DNA of 64,000 nucleotides from Vicingaceae bacterium. Its GTDB lineage: Bacteria > Bacteroidota > Bacteroidia > Flavobacteriales_E > Vicingaceae. Shown in pieces: positions 7,687 through 59,082 of this stretch. The notes under the pieces are model-generated. The model ran no database searches and had not been told where the DNA came from. It saw nothing but the letters and a program-made list of their open reading frames with translations. Position 1 is the stretch's first letter; each line of letters opens with the position of its first letter. The position numbers and the translations under genes are program-made. The stretch spans positions 682,001 through 746,000 of the forward strand of contig JAGYIE010000002.1 in NCBI GenBank assembly GCA_018402765.1, given 5' to 3'.

Positions 7687-10119
7687 ATGAATACTAGATA
7701 CATTCCTTTTTTGCTATTAATTGTATTATCAATTAACTACGCTTATGGACAAACAGTAAGAATTTCAGGTCAAGTATTAGACGAACAGTCAAATAAACCA
7801 TTGGCTTTTGTAACTATTGGGATAGAAGGGACTAACAACGGCTTTAGTACCGATATTGATGGTCGATTTGATGCATCAGTTGAAACGCAGCATACAACTT
7901 TAATTTTTAGTTATATAGGTTACCGAAAAAGGAAAGTGTACATAGATGAGCTTATTGAGAATAGGATTGTCTTATTAAATCAAACTGGCATTGATATAAA
8001 TGAGGTAAAGGTTGTTCCGGGAATTAATCCTGCAGACTTGATTATGGAGAGAGTGATCAATAATCGTAAGGTCAATAACCCTGAAGAGGCAACTGAGTTT
8101 TCTTATGATTCATATAATAAGCTAGTTTTCACGGTAAATCCTGATAGTGTGTCTAAAGAAATCGAACTTCAAAAAGATTCCGTCAATAAAGATTCTTCCT
8201 TATTGGATGTTGCCGACTATATTTCTAAACAGCACCTTTTTATGATGGAGTCTGTAAGTCATCGGGATTACATTTCTCCAACAAAAGACAAAGAGTTGAT
8301 TTTGGCCAGTCGTGTGAGTGGATTGACATCACCGGAGTTTTCATTGATTGGAACGCAGTTGCAGTCGTTTTCTTTTTATAAAGATTATGTAGAATTGATG
8401 GATTATCGATTATTGAGTCCAATTTCTAAAGGGGCGACAAGACAGTATTTATTTATCTTAGAAGACAGTATTGTTGACAATGGCGAAAAATATTACATCA
8501 TCAGTTTTCAGCCAAAGAAAGGAAAGAATTTTGAAGCATTAAAGGGGCAGTTGTCTATTCATAAAGGCGATTATGCCATCAAAAGTGTCTCGGCTAGTCC
8601 TGCAGTTAAAGGTGGAGGAATTGAAATGAAGATTCAACAACTGTATGAAAAGGTAGATGGTCAGTGGTTTCCAATCCAGTTGAATAGCAATTTAACCTTC
8701 AATACATTGATAGTTGATCAATTTCCGCTATACGGTATTGGACGATCGTATTTAAAAAATATAAAATTGACTTCTTTGCGACCTAAAAATAAGTTTGATA
8801 ATGTGGTATTGGAGATGGATCGAAAGATTAAAAGCAATACAGATAGTTTATTGAATGCATACCGAATTGACACCCTTGATCTAAAAGAGAATCGAACGTA
8901 TGAGGTAATGGATTCCATCGGAAAAGAAGAGAAATTGGATGAAAAGCTTCGATTATTTAAAATCGCTACTAGAGGCTTTATTCCACTTGGCCCTATTAAT
9001 CTAGATTTATCAAAGCTTGGTGCTTTTAACAATTATGAAGGGTTGCGTTTAGGGTTAGGTGCACACACCAATGATCGAATTTCTGAGAAAGTATCATTAG
9101 GGGGTTACTTTGCCTATGGGTTTAAAGACAAAAACTGGAAGTATGGCGGGGATCTAAGTTATCGACCTTTCACTGAGAACGATTTTAAGTTTACTGCAAG
9201 TTACTCGAATGATGTATTAGAAAGAGGTGGTCTGCAACTTGATTTATTGACTCAATCGCCAATTTCAATCGCAAGCTACAGAGATTTATACATCTATCAA
9301 ATGGATTTTAGAGAACAGTTGAGATTTGAAACGCAGTTTAGTGCCTTTAAAAGTTGGAAGGTTAATCTTTTTGGACAGCAGAATTGGATTTCATCAGGAG
9401 ATAACTATCGGTTTAGCCAGTCAGTTAGTGAGTCAACTAGAATTGTATACAATCAGTTTCAGCAGACAGAAATAGGGATGGAAACTCGATTCGCTTACGG
9501 CGAAAAGTTTGCAGAATTATTCGGGATGAAAATATCTTCAGGTACTAAGTATCCTATAACTTACTTTAAATATACTAGAGGACTTTCGTCCAATGAGTCA
9601 GCTTTTGATTACAACAAATTCGATGCTCGAATTTCTAAGTTGTTTGTAATTAGGAATGCAGGGGAGCTTAATTTACAGTTGCTTGGTGGCTACATGGATG
9701 CCTCAGCTCCCTTATTGTTTAATTATACAGCTACAGGGATAAATAGAGGATTTCGACTATCAGTAGCCAGTACTTTTGAGACAGCACAGCCAAATGAGTT
9801 TTTTCATAACCGATTTGCAAGTGTTTTTATACGGCATAATTTTAAAAAGCTTTTATATAAAGGGGAAAAATTTCAACCAGAGTTTGTGCTTCATTCTGCT
9901 TATGGCATTGGTGATATGACCAATAGAGCGAACCATCAGAACATAGATTTTAAAGAAATGAATAGACTTTTTATGGAGTCAGGACTTATTGTAAACGACT
10001 TGTTTAAAATGCCTTTTCTTACTTATGGTGCAGGTATTTTTTATCGCTACGGACACTATGCTAATCCTAATGTATTAGATAACTTTTATATTAAACTAGC
10101 GATGCGGTTTGGGTTTTAG
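7687..10119 (+). CDS. DUF5686 outer-membrane protein with carboxypeptidase-like regulatory domain
   Basis: The 810-residue protein has a signal peptide (MNTRYIPFLLLIVLSINYAY, cleavage near GQ22), then a CarboxypepD_reg-like domain at about 23-110 (ISGQVLDEQSNKPLAFVTI, FSYIGYRKR). The remainder matches the DUF5686 family and ends in alternating aromatic strands finishing KLAMRFGF, a beta-barrel type C-terminus. It is probably an outer-membrane protein of unknown function. The arrangement resembles TonB-dependent receptors, but no plug domain or TonB box was recognised. It is monocistronic, with no terminator directly after it; a repeat-bearing non-coding region follows. Confidence 0.82.
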   Translation: MNTRYIPFLLLIVLSINYAYGQTVRISGQVLDEQSNKPLAFVTIGIEGTNNGFSTDIDGRFDASVETQHTTLIFSYIGYRKRKVYIDELIENRIVLLNQTGIDINEVKVVPGINPADLIMERVINNRKVNNPEEATEFSYDSYNKLVFTVNPDSVSKEIELQKDSVNKDSSLLDVADYISKQHLFMMESVSHRDYISPTKDKELILASRVSGLTSPEFSLIGTQLQSFSFYKDYVELMDYRLLSPISKGATRQYLFILEDSIVDNGEKYYIISFQPKKGKNFEALKGQLSIHKGDYAIKSVSASPAVKGGGIEMKIQQLYEKVDGQWFPIQLNSNLTFNTLIVDQFPLYGIGRSYLKNIKLTSLRPKNKFDNVVLEMDRKIKSNTDSLLNAYRIDTLDLKENRTYEVMDSIGKEEKLDEKLRLFKIATRGFIPLGPINLDLSKLGAFNNYEGLRLGLGAHTNDRISEKVSLGGYFAYGFKDKNWKYGGDLSYRPFTENDFKFTASYSNDVLERGGLQLDLLTQSPISIASYRDLYIYQMDFREQLRFETQFSAFKSWKVNLFGQQNWISSGDNYRFSQSVSESTRIVYNQFQQTEIGMETRFAYGEKFAELFGMKISSGTKYPITYFKYTRGLSSNESAFDYNKFDARISKLFVIRNAGELNLQLLGGYMDASAPLLFNYTATGINRGFRLSVASTFETAQPNEFFHNRFASVFIRHNFKKLLYKGEKFQPEFVLHSAYGIGDMTNRANHQNIDFKEMNRLFMESGLIVNDLFKMPFLTYGAGIFYRYGHYANPNVLDNFYIKLAMRFGF

Positions 10120-38044: not shown

Positions 38045-39403
38045 TTAGTCAATTACGAGTTTACGCGTACTGTATCCTTCATTGGTGTGAGTACGAAGAA
38101 ATAATACTCCTTTGTAATCATTTATAACTATTGGATTATCATACGTATGAACTCCTTTTGGTCGAGAGCCACCGTCGGTAATAGCTAATCTTCTTCCTGT
38201 TACATCTAGAAGTTCGAACAATATATTAGTGTTATTTTCTAACTCAAATGTTACTTTATAGTCTTGGTTATGTATTGGATTAGGGTAGACTTTTAATGAA
38301 GATTCTAAAAGGCTGTTTTTATCTACAGATGAGTTCAAGGTAGCATAAATATGGTCTACATAGGTGCTATCATCCGAGCCATTCGTATTACTTACAAAGA
38401 ACTGAAGAGTATAAAACCCTACTGCATCAAATGTTAATTCAGGTCTAGGAGAGAATCTAGATGAATTATTAACGAAGGTCACTGTGTTAGGAGAAAATTG
38501 AAATTCGCACGCTGTTCTACCTTCATCTATGGTTTGACTAACGATTTGAACAGTATCTTTATTGATAACTGGATTGGTGGAACTGATCGTAAATTCTGCT
38601 TTTGGTCCAAAATCATTTGATACATTTCGTTTAGAATCTCTATAAAGTAGAGTAGTAGGCACGAAATCTCCATTGATTAATGTTCCGTTTACTTGCATTA
38701 CAGGAAATCGCTCACCATTTGCTAACCATTTATATTCTCGTATTATACTTCTAAATCCAACATTTTGACCCGCAGCACTTACTGAATCTCTAGACACTAA
38801 ATCAGTACGAACCCTCAAACAGTTGTAAGTTCCGTTAGGAGTTACAATTGTTCCAAAGCCATCAACTATATTTTTTCTATATCCTTCTGAATGGAAAGAC
38901 CCAAAAATTGAAATATCAGCAGTTAATTTAAACGTTGAGCTATCAATATCTCCATAATCTAACGGAAACTGATACAGTTCATCAGGATCAGAGAATGTAT
39001 TCGCAATATTTAAAATGTAGTTTGCCCCTAATCCATTCCTTAAAAAACTATTGGAGGAATTTGAAAAGAATTCATAAACATTAGTCACAACATTTCCTTG
39101 TAGTTCAAGCGAATCAGCTGTTTTTCTTCCGAAAGCAGATGGGCTACTAAATGTTGAACCATAGGGCGTTTGAGATCCTGCAACGTATCGAGCTACCCCT
39201 TGTTTTTCTGCGGTTACGTGAGAAAAGTCCCATGCACTATTTGCGCCGCTTATATTAAAGTTTACAATACCTAATGAATCTATAAGGGCTGCGCTATATC
39301 TCAGCGTATCTCCTTTTATTGGCATATCAGCACTTGTAATTGTAATTTGTGCAGATAAATTAATAGCGAATATAGTTAGTGCAAAAAGGGCTAAACGTTT
39401 CAT
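38045..39403 (-). CDS. T9SS type A sorting domain-containing secreted protein
   Basis: From the ATG at 39403 the product is 452 residues: a signal peptide (MKRLALFALTIFAINLSAQ), an unidentified all-beta body, a PKD-like segment (PELTFDAVGFYTLQFFVSN) and a C-terminal type A sorting domain: SLKVYPNPIHNQDYKVTF, LFELLDVTGRRLAI and GVLFLRTHTNEGYSTRKLVI. Such domains direct export through the type IX system and surface attachment. A TTG four codons upstream is in frame but less likely. Function of the body is unknown. The sorting domain is intact, unlike the remnants near 56-57 kb. Confidence 0.88.
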   Translation of the reverse strand: MKRLALFALTIFAINLSAQITITSADMPIKGDTLRYSAALIDSLGIVNFNISGANSAWDFSHVTAEKQGVARYVAGSQTPYGSTFSSPSAFGRKTADSLELQGNVVTNVYEFFSNSSNSFLRNGLGANYILNIANTFSDPDELYQFPLDYGDIDSSTFKLTADISIFGSFHSEGYRKNIVDGFGTIVTPNGTYNCLRVRTDLVSRDSVSAAGQNVGFRSIIREYKWLANGERFPVMQVNGTLINGDFVPTTLLYRDSKRNVSNDFGPKAEFTISSTNPVINKDTVQIVSQTIDEGRTACEFQFSPNTVTFVNNSSRFSPRPELTFDAVGFYTLQFFVSNTNGSDDSTYVDHIYATLNSSVDKNSLLESSLKVYPNPIHNQDYKVTFELENNTNILFELLDVTGRRLAITDGGSRPKGVHTYDNPIVINDYKGVLFLRTHTNEGYSTRKLVID

Positions 39404-39449
39404 AATTGTCAAATTTTAACGAAGATACTAAATTCTTATGACGAACGAA

Positions 39450-54423: not shown

Positions 54424-54824
54424 AAAAAATATTGCTTTTAGTTTCCATTGCTTTTCTCTTTTCATGTGAAGAAGAGTTAAAAAAACCTGATATAGTGCTC
54501 GAACAAGAAAAAATGGTTGATGTGATGACTGATGTTCAAATCGCAGAATCGTATATTAAATTAAAGTTTGCACTAAGAAACGATACCATCACAATTACAG
54601 ATAGTGTTTATGCTGCACTATACCGCAAGCACGAAATAACATCAGCTGTTTACGATATGAGCTTTCAGTTTTATGCAAAGCATCCTGATCTTTTACAAGA
54701 GATTTACGAAAAAGCCATTAATAATTTAGGGACAATTGAAGCATTTAATGAGTCCACTAAAAAACAAAGTCAACCAGCTAAAGTGGAACCACCTACTAAC
54801 CTAGTGGTGTCGGAGGAAGGTTGA
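54420..54824 (+). CDS. DUF4296 lipoprotein
   Basis: The 134-residue lipoprotein has a lipobox (AFLFSC, Cys16) followed by EEELKKPDIVLEQEKMVDVM, DVQIAESYIKLKFA and YRKHEITSAVYDMSFQFY, typical of DUF4296. Function is unknown. It starts within the last codons of pyrC (ATGA), a repeated association in Bacteroidota. Its C-terminal 24 bases overlap the convergent SDR gene. Confidence 0.85.
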   Translation: MKKILLLVSIAFLFSCEEELKKPDIVLEQEKMVDVMTDVQIAESYIKLKFALRNDTITITDSVYAALYRKHEITSAVYDMSFQFYAKHPDLLQEIYEKAINNLGTIEAFNESTKKQSQPAKVEPPTNLVVSEEG

Positions 54825-55805
54825 TCCGGTCTGTTTTATTGCCTCAAAAATATTCTGGTATTGGTGGTTTAGCTGAACTATCGATTTAGAATTATCATAG
54901 CTTTTATTGCTGTAAGCGGCCTCTAGCGTATCTTTAGTAAGTACCGATTTTTTGTTGCTTAAAGCAGACGTAAGCTGCTCAAAAAATAACACAACTTTAC
55001 CTTGCCATTTCAGAGCCTTTTTCGACGGGCTATTCACATTTATTGATTCAGCTATGGCCTCAAATAATCTTCTGAAACTTAAATTTTCCCCATTTGCTAT
55101 AAATCGTTGGTTAACTATATCGCTATGGAGTAGCTTAATTGCTAGACTTGCCACATCTTCAACCCCTACAAATCCGTTGCTTCCACTTGTGTAATAATTT
55201 AATCCTTCTTTAATTCGTCTAAATAGAGCAGGACTACCTTCTTTCCAATCGCCAGGGCCAATAATAGTTGAAGGATTTAATATAGCAACATCCATCCCCT
55301 CAGCAGAGGCTCGCCACACTTCATTTTCAGCATAATGCTTGCTAATAGAATATGTTGAAGTGGTTTCAGTCTTTTCCCAATTGTCATCTTCGGTAATAAG
55401 TTCTTTGTGCTTATTCTCACCAAGAGCAGCAACGGAGCTAATGAAAACAATTTTCTTGATTTTAGAACATAAAGCGGCATTTACTAAATTAGCTGTGCCT
55501 TGTATGTTTATTTTTTTTAATAACTTTTTTTCTTTAGAATCAAAAGAAACAAGACCTGCAGCGTGAATAATTGACTCTGCTCCTACAAGCGCATCATCTA
55601 AAGAAAAAATATCCAAGATATCAGCTTTTACCCATTCGATTTTATTGAAATCAGCCTCTCTACCATAAAAACCAAAGATTGTTTTTGTCTTTTGTAAGCT
55701 TTGCTCATTTCGGTAGATTGCTTTGATAAATCCGGATGACTCACCTATAAGCTTTAAAAGAATATGCGCACCTACTAAACCGCTTCCGCCTGTAACTAAA
55801 ACCAT
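54801..55805 (-). CDS. NAD-dependent epimerase/reductase (extended SDR)
   Basis: The 334-residue SDR starts MVLVTGGSGLVGAHILLKLI with the complete GxxGxxG motif, and has IIHAAGLVSFDSKEKKLLKK, IVFISSVAALGE, a STYSISKHYAENEVW active-site YxxxK and AILNPSTIIGPGDWKEGS. It resembles dihydroflavonol-reductase-like proteins near pyrC in other Bacteroidota. Substrate is unknown. Convergent with the DUF4296 gene. Confidence 0.87.
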   Translation of the reverse strand: MVLVTGGSGLVGAHILLKLIGESSGFIKAIYRNEQSLQKTKTIFGFYGREADFNKIEWVKADILDIFSLDDALVGAESIIHAAGLVSFDSKEKKLLKKINIQGTANLVNAALCSKIKKIVFISSVAALGENKHKELITEDDNWEKTETTSTYSISKHYAENEVWRASAEGMDVAILNPSTIIGPGDWKEGSPALFRRIKEGLNYYTSGSNGFVGVEDVASLAIKLLHSDIVNQRFIANGENLSFRRLFEAIAESINVNSPSKKALKWQGKVVLFFEQLTSALSNKKSVLTKDTLEAAYSNKSYDNSKSIVQLNHQYQNIFEAIKQTGSTFLRHH

Positions 55806-55933
55806 GTGGTAAAAATACTTAATAAAAAGGTTACATAGTTGTATAGATAATTAGAGTAATCAATAGTTTAAATCAGGAATTATGTTTTATGCTTTTTGAT
55901 TTATTTACAGATTATTTAATATTCTTATCTTAG
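55806..55933. other. Non-coding stretch before the T9SS remnants
   Basis: AT-rich, with stops in all frames. No promoter or RNA signal was recognised. It precedes a frame encoding a T9SS sorting-domain fragment. Confidence 0.4.
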
Positions 55934-56101
55934 TTAGAAGCTTTTGCCGATTCAACCGTCATTAAATCATGTATCTACGACATGTATTTTCAGTTGGTAA
56001 AAACAGTAATTTTACCCAATTATACTGGTGAATACCGTTTTGAATCTGAGGGGTTCAGAAGTGGTGTTTATTTAGTGGTCTTAGAAACACCTAGCAACTG
56101 A
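55934..56101 (+). pseudogene. Orphan T9SS C-terminal sorting domain remnant
   Basis: One frame, opened by a stop at 55931-55933 and closed by TGA at 56099-56101, encodes about 55 residues that include STVIKSCIYDMYFQLVK, TVILPNYTGEYRFES and EGFRSGVYLVVLETPSN. This is the classic pattern of the last strands of a type A sorting domain (I-Y-D-x-x-G-x-x-V, then S-G-V-Y-L-V). No cargo body, start or signal peptide precedes it, so it is read as the surviving 3' end of a lost secreted-protein gene. Identification is by motif only. Confidence 0.6.
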
Positions 56102-56139
56102 ATTAGTAAACCATTAATCATCACTAAACCCTAATACTT

Positions 56140-57493
56140 ATGCGACCAACAATAGTAATATTCAGTATTTTTTCTCTTTTTCTTATTAACCAATCGTTTG
56201 CACAAGGCGGCTGGCAATGGGCCGCCTCTCACGGAGGTGATGTAAGTTCTACTACAGAAGTAGTAAAGCATTTACAAACGGACCGATTTAATTGGGTTTT
56301 TATCTAGCCACCTAACAAGACCGGCCTACACGTTTAATCAAATTTTAATGCCAATAGATTCATTAGGTACGTTTATTGCCAAATTAGATTCAGGTGGAAT
56401 TTTACAATGGCATAGAACAATGGGGTTCTATACCATCAGAAATATAAAGGCAAATACAGGTGGAGCAGTATTATTTTTAAAAGACAATAAATCGTTAGTA
56501 TTCCTTAATGTTGACCGTCGTAAAGTAATTTTTAATTCGGCTATATTTGAGGAAGGTTGGCATGCAGTAGAGCTAGATTTAAATGGAATCTACCTTTTTA
56601 AAACGAAGTTTCCATTCATCGATTACCAAAGGAGTCCTGCTACATGTAAAACCGCAAACGACAAACAAGGCAACTACTACTTCCATGGTCAGTTTCCGGG
56701 TGATACGCTGTTTTTAGTGAATGATACATTGGTGAGAAATAGTCAAAATTTAGCAAATGGACTTGTTTTAGCAATAGATTCATTAGGCAATTATAAATGG
56801 AGTTTTATAAGTCAGAATAATTATGATCCATTTACAGATGGAGTTATTGCAGGTGATACTATTCTTATCTCTTCTCAGGTGTCAATATCTAATGTAGATA
56901 CTGTAAAATTTGGATGCAGTAATTATGAACCAAATAGTCAGTTTGGCCAAGAAAGTATTCTATTATACCTCAATCCAAATAACGCTAATGTAATTGGCTT
57001 AAAGCATAGCAATGGTAAAAACAATAGCTCTTCTAGTAGTTATGGTATTGCAGCTAATTAAGACTTTATGGCTATCAGTGGTAAGTTTGATCACAAAATG
57101 ACCTTTGTAGATTCTAGTATTTACGTAGCCGGCTTCTTCAATGATACCCTCTTTGTGCAAGGTGATACTTTAATAGCCGGTGGTAGCAATGATGTGTTTT
57201 TAGTCCGCTATGATTTACTGTGTGATAAAGGAATTACTGTTGGCATAAAAGAGAACAGTAACTTCATTAAAGCAGAGAATGGAGTATTGGTGTAGCCAAA
57301 CCCACCAAATGGGTTTACTAACCTTATCGGTAAGCCAGTAAATAATACGGCTATGCTTATTGATGTCAGTGGTAAAGTATTGAAAAAAATCGCACTAGAT
57401 GTGAATGCTATTCAGCAGCCCATTGATATGCAAGAAGCAAAAAGTGGTGTTTATTTTTTAACCATTATTGGAAATAAAGGTAAACAGGTTTAA
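56140..57493 (+). pseudogene. Broken T9SS cargo protein gene
   Basis: It starts with a signal peptide at 56140 (MRPTIVIFSIFSLFLINQSF, then AQGGWQWAASHGGD) and shifts frame near 56295-56304, where one extra T in a T5 run would explain the stop at 56307. It continues in the second frame (HLTRPAYTFNQILMPIDSLG; repeated LxSLGxYKW-type strands). Two in-frame stops follow: TAA at 57059 after GIAAN, and TAG at 57293, where GVLV-stop-PNPPNGF stands for the sorting motif VYPNP. The tail (LIDVSGKVLKKIALD, SGVYFLTIIGNKGKQV) is a type A sorting domain ending TAA at 57493. About 450 codons with three lesions. Confidence 0.82.
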
Positions 57494-57510
57494 AATTAAT
57501 GAGAGAGTAA

Positions 57511-57680
57511 TTTTAAAACGGCATCTCGATACAACCCAAGAATTACCCTGAGTGGGTTTTAGTGCCTTTTGGTAAAATTTCGTTTTTAACGAAATTACTC
57601 GAGGTACTAAAAACTGTATCGAAGGGCACTTCTTGGATCACTCGATGACCTTTTAAAAATGAAACCAAAGGCAGTAAAAA
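57511..57680. repeat. Dispersed intergenic repeat, copy 2
   Basis: Contains GGCAtCTCGATA, a 9-bp hairpin AATTTCGTT/AACGAAATT, CGAGGTACTAA, GTATCGAAGGGCACT and CACTCGATGACCTTTT (57639-57654), matching blocks of the copy at 10277-10404 in the same orientation. It lies in the gap after the broken T9SS gene and before tyrS. Confidence 0.65.
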
Positions 57681-57765
57681 ATACTTCGACTACTTTTGCG
57701 ATCGTATTGAGACCACAGTTAAAACACCTCTTTCCTTTATGCTGTCATTTTTATTCTTGAAAAGC

Positions 57766-57773
57766 TATCTTTG
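57766..57773 (+). promoter_or_regulatory. Candidate -7 element for tyrS
   Basis: A perfect TATCTTTG followed by C, 19 bases before the ATG at 57793. No -33 TTG at normal spacing. Confidence 0.5.
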
Positions 57774-57792
57774 CAAAAATTATTGATTGCAT

Positions 57793-59082
57793 ATGAATTT
57801 TGTTAAAGAATTAGAATGGAGAGAAATGCTGCATAGCAGTATGCCTGGAGTAGAAGAGCATTTATTAGAAGGAATGAGATGTGCTTACGTGGGAATTGAT
57901 CCTACGGCTGATTCATTACACATAGGTCATTTAGTGGGCGTAATGATGCTCAAGCATTTTCAATCGGCAGGACACCGTCCTATGGCGTTGATTGGTGGTG
58001 CTACAGGAATGATTGGAGACCCATCAGGAAAATCTAAAGAACGAAATTTATTAGACGAAGAAGCCCTTCGTCACAACCAAGAATGCATTAAAAAGCAATT
58101 ATCAAAATTTTTAGACTTTGATACAAAAGCAGAGAACGGGGCTTTGATAGTCAATAATTACGACTGGATGAAAGACTTTTCTTTCTTAGACTTTATTCGA
58201 GATGTTGGAAAGCACATTACTGTAAATTACATGATGGCGAAAGATTCTGTAAAAAAAAGATTGACTTCTGACGATTCTGAAGGTATGTCGTTTACAGAAT
58301 TTACGTATCAATTGGTACAAGGATATGATTTCTTGCATTTATTTCAGCAAAATGACTGCACCTTACAGATGGGTGGCTCTGACCAGTGGGGCAATATCAC
58401 TACCGGAACGGAGATGATTAGAAGAATTGGCAATGGGAAAGCTTTTGCGATTACTTGTCCGCTAATTACTAAAGCCGATGGAGGGAAATTTGGTAAAACT
58501 GAGAGCGGTAACGTTTGGTTAGATCCTGAAAAGACATCCCCTTATTCTTTTTATCAGTTTTGGATGAATGTTTCTGACGAAGACGCAGCCAAGTATTTGA
58601 AGATTTTTACGTTGTTTACGCAGTCAGAAATTCGATCAATGATTACTAAGCATTCCGAGGCTCCACACTTGCGGTTGTTGCAATCGGCTTTGGCAAAAGA
58701 TATAACTATTCGAGTGCATTCCGAAGAAGATTATACAAATGCTTTAGCCGCATCAGATATCTTATTTGGAAAATCAACTACAGATGACTTAAAAAAGTTA
58801 TCAGAAAGAGATTTCTTAGCTATTTTCGATGGGGTACCGCAGGGAGCAGTAAATAAAGAATTACTAAAAAATGGTTTAAATATTGTTGAGTTATCTGCAG
58901 TGGAAACGGACTTATTTTCATCTAACGGTGAGGCAAGAAGAATGTTGAAGAGCAATGCTGTTAGTTTAAATAAGGAAAAGGTTTCTGAATCTAAAATAGT
59001 TAATTTGGATGATTTGTTATTTGATAAATATTTAATTCTTCAAAAAGGAAAGAAGAATTATTACCTCGTTATGTTTAGCTAG
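57793..59082 (+). CDS. tyrS: Tyrosyl-tRNA synthetase
   Basis: The protein from the ATG at 57793 is 429 residues, class [21 protein letters not shown] with HIGH at 43-46, [56 protein letters not shown] as the KMSKS-type loop, and a C-terminal S4-like RNA-binding part ([20 protein letters not shown]). It charges tRNA-Tyr. A TTG two codons earlier is in frame but not preferred. The next gene starts at the base after its stop. Confidence 0.96.

Follow-up and report, generated by a model that had tools for sequence, protein, structure and literature searches.

In Porphyromonas gingivalis, surface proteins, several of which carry sorting domains of the type IX secretion system (T9SS), vary through domain rearrangement and through the exchange of alleles between strains, and the resulting variants form a mosaic unrelated to the strain phylogeny (PMC5266723). 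The locus analysed here is similar in that T9SS surface proteins would vary by exchange; however, in P. gingivalis the exchange takes place between the alleles of strains (PMC5266723), whereas here it would have occurred between paralogs inside one genome, one of them a pseudogene. The vls system of Borrelia (PMC11499132) also combines intact and non-functional copies that share high-identity blocks around diverged blocks. Our locus differs from it in having neither a cassette array nor fixed borders, and its broken copy is a nearly full gene with a start codon. Of two features of silent-cassette systems, mosaic blocks between a silent copy and a copy presumed to be expressed are present, whereas a promoterless cassette array with common borders beside one expression site is not. 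The stops, the loss of frame, a deletion between direct repeats and the presence of an intact paralog elsewhere are shared with ordinary bacterial pseudogenes formed by segmental duplication, from which the copy differs by its mosaic divergence from the paralog. Literature searches on type IX secretion and gene conversion (subscription journals mostly lay outside their coverage) returned nothing on mosaic T9SS paralogs in one genome, and those on type IX secretion, pseudogenes and sorting domains returned only a Chryseobacterium genome paper and none on mosaic paralogs.

The analysed stretch of DNA (64 kb, hereafter the window) belongs to contig C9 of a genome of 3.10 Mb (G000; 16 contigs, 99.8% complete). 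The broken gene lies on the plus strand between a divergent NAD-dependent epimerase-like gene (54801–55805, minus strand) and tyrS, encoding tyrosyl-tRNA synthetase (57787–59082, plus strand), which form the left and right borders of the insertion site. A same-genome protein search revealed an intact paralog at G000:C9:444519–446279, 294 kb from the window copy; it encodes 586 aa with the motif VYPNPSNGF and a full C-terminus, so the dead copy is not the only such gene of its species. Protein similarity between the two copies (448 and 247 bits) excludes a chance match. The cargo copy starts with ATG at 56140, and its 5′ part (56140–56284) comprises the start codon, a putative Sec signal peptide MRPTIVIFSIFSLFLINQSFAQ, judged by inspection at the N-terminus, and the first ~48 codons. 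The propeller body follows in a second frame (56288–57058), as recognized by alignment to the paralog and by the family-profile match described below, and the type A T9SS sorting domain (Por_Secre_tail) occupies 57281–57493. Similarity to the paralog locus ends at L011:10288, which places the right end of the duplicated segment at 57518. An intergenic dispersed repeat (57512–57660) stands immediately 3′ of the segment and has 75% identity over 146 bases to G000:C11:85206–85374; a ~34-base part of it is repeated several times in a stretch of about 500 bases, G000:C1:960034–960536. This repeat may have been involved in the insertion of the segment.

The assignment to T9SS cargo is based on several matches. 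When the stop was replaced by X, the window tail matched TIGR04183 with 33.4 bits (cut-off 23; E 6e-11), rising to 42.1 bits with the last frame read as in the paralog, and it also matched PF18962. The intact paralog matched PF18962 with 40.9 bits (cut-off 27), and this sorting domain was its only Pfam match. The translocon component SprA, the component that we searched for, is encoded in the genome (2638 bits, cut-off 200). The family profile matched the CylK propeller over four stretches (E 2.6e-29), and one relative (L075) matched the SBBP repeat PF06739. A structure model of low confidence (pLDDT 59) had CylK as its best fold match and lends weak support to a propeller. These matches indicate that the cargo body is a beta-propeller of SBBP type. 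Among T9SS cargo with type A C-terminal domains (TIGR04183, PF18962) and SBBP-type bodies, a signal peptide, all-beta repeats and a YPNP-type end are common to the paralog and the relatives; the window copy differs in being broken. The original prediction, which had read a signal peptide, an all-beta body and a type A sorting domain from the letters alone and had called the locus an inactivated T9SS cargo gene, is supported on both points, given the sorting-domain match and the lesions relative to the intact paralog. A second T9SS cargo-like gene of the window (38045–39412, minus strand) is intact and has VYPNP near its C-terminus.

At the DNA level, the window copy and the paralog aligned in three collinear blocks (55938–56287, 56286–57106, and 57091–57518). 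Between the first two blocks the diagonal jumps by 230 bp, corresponding to a frame-shifting deletion of this size at 56284–56288. The frameshift had been attributed to the T-run at 56295–56304; however, the DNA of this run can be aligned to the paralog without a single indel (GGGTTTTTATC versus GGCTTCTTATC), and the frame loss is due to the 230-bp deletion, the main disabling lesion as judged from the alignment. What looked like a homopolymer slip was revealed as a deletion only by the intact paralog, which illustrates how a reading of a single sequence can misjudge lesions. The shift between the second and third blocks is 156 bp (52 codons) and remains in frame. At its junction (57092–57107) stands one 16-bp sequence of which the paralog has two copies (L011:9704–9719 and 9860–9875; 15/16 identical), the sequence signature of a deletion between direct repeats. 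Relative to the paralog, about 128 codons are missing.

Both predicted in-frame stops are present, TAA at 57059–57061 (GCT in the paralog of the same genome, AAA in the G001 relative) and TAG at 57293–57295. The latter stands at the Tyr codon of VYPNP in the first part of the sorting domain, as had been proposed; the paralog has TAC and the relatives TAT at this codon. The 230-bp deletion and the TAA both lie upstream of the TAG, and either of them alone would already have removed the export tag. In addition, one base is absent at 57489/57490, and this creates the TAA at 57491–57493 at which the gene had been thought to end; the domain stops early and its last residues are lost. Together with the 156-bp deletion and the truncated tail upstream of the gene, this lesion contradicts the statement that all other homology was intact. 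By comparison with an intact homolog, these lesions disable the window copy: its full protein cannot be made, and the locus is a real pseudogene; as such it is of an ordinary, known kind.

The gene preceding the intact paralog encodes a 1876-aa PKD-domain T9SS protein with its own sorting domain (L011:2884–8514), and its stop lies 5 bp ahead of the intact cargo ATG; the two genes likely form one operon. The end of this giant gene has a counterpart in the window, where 55938–56287 has 90% DNA identity to L011:8318–8667. A 5′-truncated stump of the giant's C-terminal sorting domain (55938–56134, plus strand) retains about 66 in-frame codons, ends at the giant's own stop at 56132 and contains an extra in-frame TGA at 56099–56101. 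Since the giant's tail is present ahead of the cargo ATG, the whole segment (55938–57518) was copied, not the gene alone. In G001 and G002, which belong to the same genus, and in G016, the epimerase gene and tyrS are adjacent and the site is empty; the empty sites of G001 and G002 have 70–74% DNA identity on both sides, the matches being separated by 58 and 195 bp. We compared 54 further genomes that carry the pair, among them a record of G001 itself (L082): their spacers have a median length of 112 bp, and 51 of them do not exceed 379 bp, compared with 1987 bp here. The divergent pair (54801–59082) with a short spacer is kept across Flavobacteriia and Bacteroidales. From these comparisons, the insertion most likely belongs to the lineage of this species. 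The named genomes and spacer lengths were obtained with tyrS as the query; a scan of the named genomes with the cargo protein as the query found no relative, and a plasmid search gave no match.

The dN/dS of the reading frames, a check that had been suggested, was 0.13 for the flanks of the window copy against the paralog and 0.135 for the middle block. A ratio near 1, which would indicate the relaxed constraint of a pseudogene, was not observed; the value of 0.13 is expected if the inactivation was recent, and it therefore dates the loss and does not undo the pseudogene status. When changes were polarised with G001, an outgroup close to synonymous saturation (dS about 2.5), 15 of the 44 changes on the window branch were nonsynonymous, compared with 78% expected under neutrality (p 5e-10), and the neutral share of this branch was at most about 0.15. 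The constraint on the window and paralog branches was alike (0.146 versus 0.125). The stump of the giant's tail, a short stretch, looks neutral in comparison (pN 0.115, pS 0.136, pN/pS about 0.85), and it differs from the cargo flanks in a Fisher test (p 0.002), although the tail of the giant may evolve fast for reasons of its own. The constrained window branch and the neutral-looking stump beside it support an inactivation that was recent relative to the divergence of the window copy. Recent decay, as originally predicted, is consistent with these values, namely the dN/dS of 0.13 and the small neutral share. High homology in the flanks is unusable as a clock, since the two copies are mosaics in which gene conversion has probably overwritten some parts. 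The number of stops was also considered as a clock and rejected: neutral simulations yield 0.3–4 stops for 10–110 substitutions, so two stops give no date for the event.

Divergence between the two copies is distributed unevenly. Identity is mostly 83–97% in the flanks and 55–70% in a block of ~110 codons (56736–57064, plus strand), which contains the TAA and appears to be anciently diverged. The dS is 0.23 in the 5′ block, 2.39 in this middle block (about tenfold the 5′ value) and 0.58 in the other flank. In a segment test, the window–paralog pair reached z 12.4, a value attained in 0 of 500 permutations, none of which exceeded 6.0. Other pairs within genomes behaved similarly, with z 8.1–12.0 for three G001 pairs and 11.4 for the G016 pair (0/500 permutations each), whereas between-species pairs (window–G001, paralog–G001, paralog–G016) had z 4.1–4.5, values that 18 to 63 of the 500 permutations also reached. 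Quartet sites group the window copy with the paralog in the flanks (35/1/6, 20/1/0, 18/1/0, and 25/2/1) and are evenly split, in a star-like manner, in the middle block (11/9/10). The tracts end at different places in different pairs, a pattern that favours general homologous recombination over fixed cassettes. The two copies of G000 lie in the interior of a 994-kb contig; those of G001 and G016 abut contig ends or N gaps, and chimeric assembly could account for part of their mosaicism.

We consider it likely that the locus is a duplicated segment whose long-constrained cargo copy was later broken and whose outer parts were exchanged by gene conversion. The end of the giant PKD T9SS gene and the entire downstream cargo gene would have been duplicated into the epimerase–tyrS spacer in this lineage, where the stump of the giant would have been dead at once and then drifted. 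Through most of its history the cargo copy would have been kept by purifying selection, and it was presumably expressed and exported before its death. Two deletions, two stop codons and one 1-bp deletion would later have broken it, the original locus remaining intact throughout. The outer parts of both copies would have been exchanged by homologous recombination, leaving these parts mostly 85–95% identical and an inner block as different as between species. The order of these events is our reconstruction.

Gene conversion among paralogs best explains the mosaic as it appears in the alignments, and we prefer it to an import of alleles from other strains. Such an import is possible: it would yield an identical mosaic pattern, and this genome has no third copy left as a source of the diverged block. 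That the inner block is merely a fast-evolving region of the protein, diverged without recombination, is very improbable. Between the two copies dN does peak there, but its synonymous divergence is also raised (roughly ten times that of the 5′ block), and the between-species pairs, which serve as controls in the segment test, show no such peak, on which ground this explanation was rejected. Still less credible is an intact gene disrupted by errors of sequencing or assembly; a single-base deletion among the lesions is of the kind that they produce, whereas the 230-bp and 156-bp deletions, the two stops and about 10% divergence across the flanks are not, the frames of the remaining long genes in the window are intact, and the genome is nearly complete. 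As the sole cause, assembly error was rejected because large deletions are not readily produced in that way.

If the segment had lost its promoter on relocation, the copy would never have worked in the spacer. The region between 55801 and 56150 has no TAnnTTTG motif, and the intact cargo gene, with its ATG directly behind the giant's stop, probably shares a transcript with the giant. This course of events is nevertheless unlikely given the contrast in constraint between the cargo copy and the stump that moved with it, and given the match between the window and paralog branches; it could hold if the constrained divergence preceded the move. A further alternative is that the broken copy is maintained as a reservoir of sequence variants from which the expressed gene is rewritten, as happens with vls and pilin genes. 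The mosaic identity between the broken copy and the intact, presumably expressed one would agree with this, as would the equal pattern among paralogs of two other species and the low dN/dS of the diverged block. We regard it as improbable, since the borders differ by pair with no cassette array seen, this genome has a single broken copy, and most copies elsewhere are gene-like with a start and a sorting domain.

The cargo family is patchy: of the 46 genomes in its bacterial family, 6 carry the gene, with at least three copies in G001 and two in G016, mostly at contig ends or N gaps. The G001 copies (C11:1–2478, the end of C17, the start of C15, and the end of C19; L044–L047) consist of conserved and variable blocks, and nearly every one of them coincides with a break in the assembly, which points to repeats left unjoined. 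Two homologs from other genera are also broken: G022:C2:227587–229312 (L050) by two TAA and a frame change, and G058:C23:21634–23400 (L076) by one TAG in its N-terminal part. With the copy described here, these broken members indicate that decay in this family has occurred repeatedly. That this multi-copy T9SS propeller family keeps diversifying through gene conversion between its dispersed and tandem copies, with broken copies donating old variants, is an idea to which we give little credence. The family is mosaic within genomes in three species and broken in three, and its history deserves strain-level sequencing. Gene conversion among paralogs may thereby be tested as a source of surface variation in the T9SS cargo of environmental Bacteroidota.
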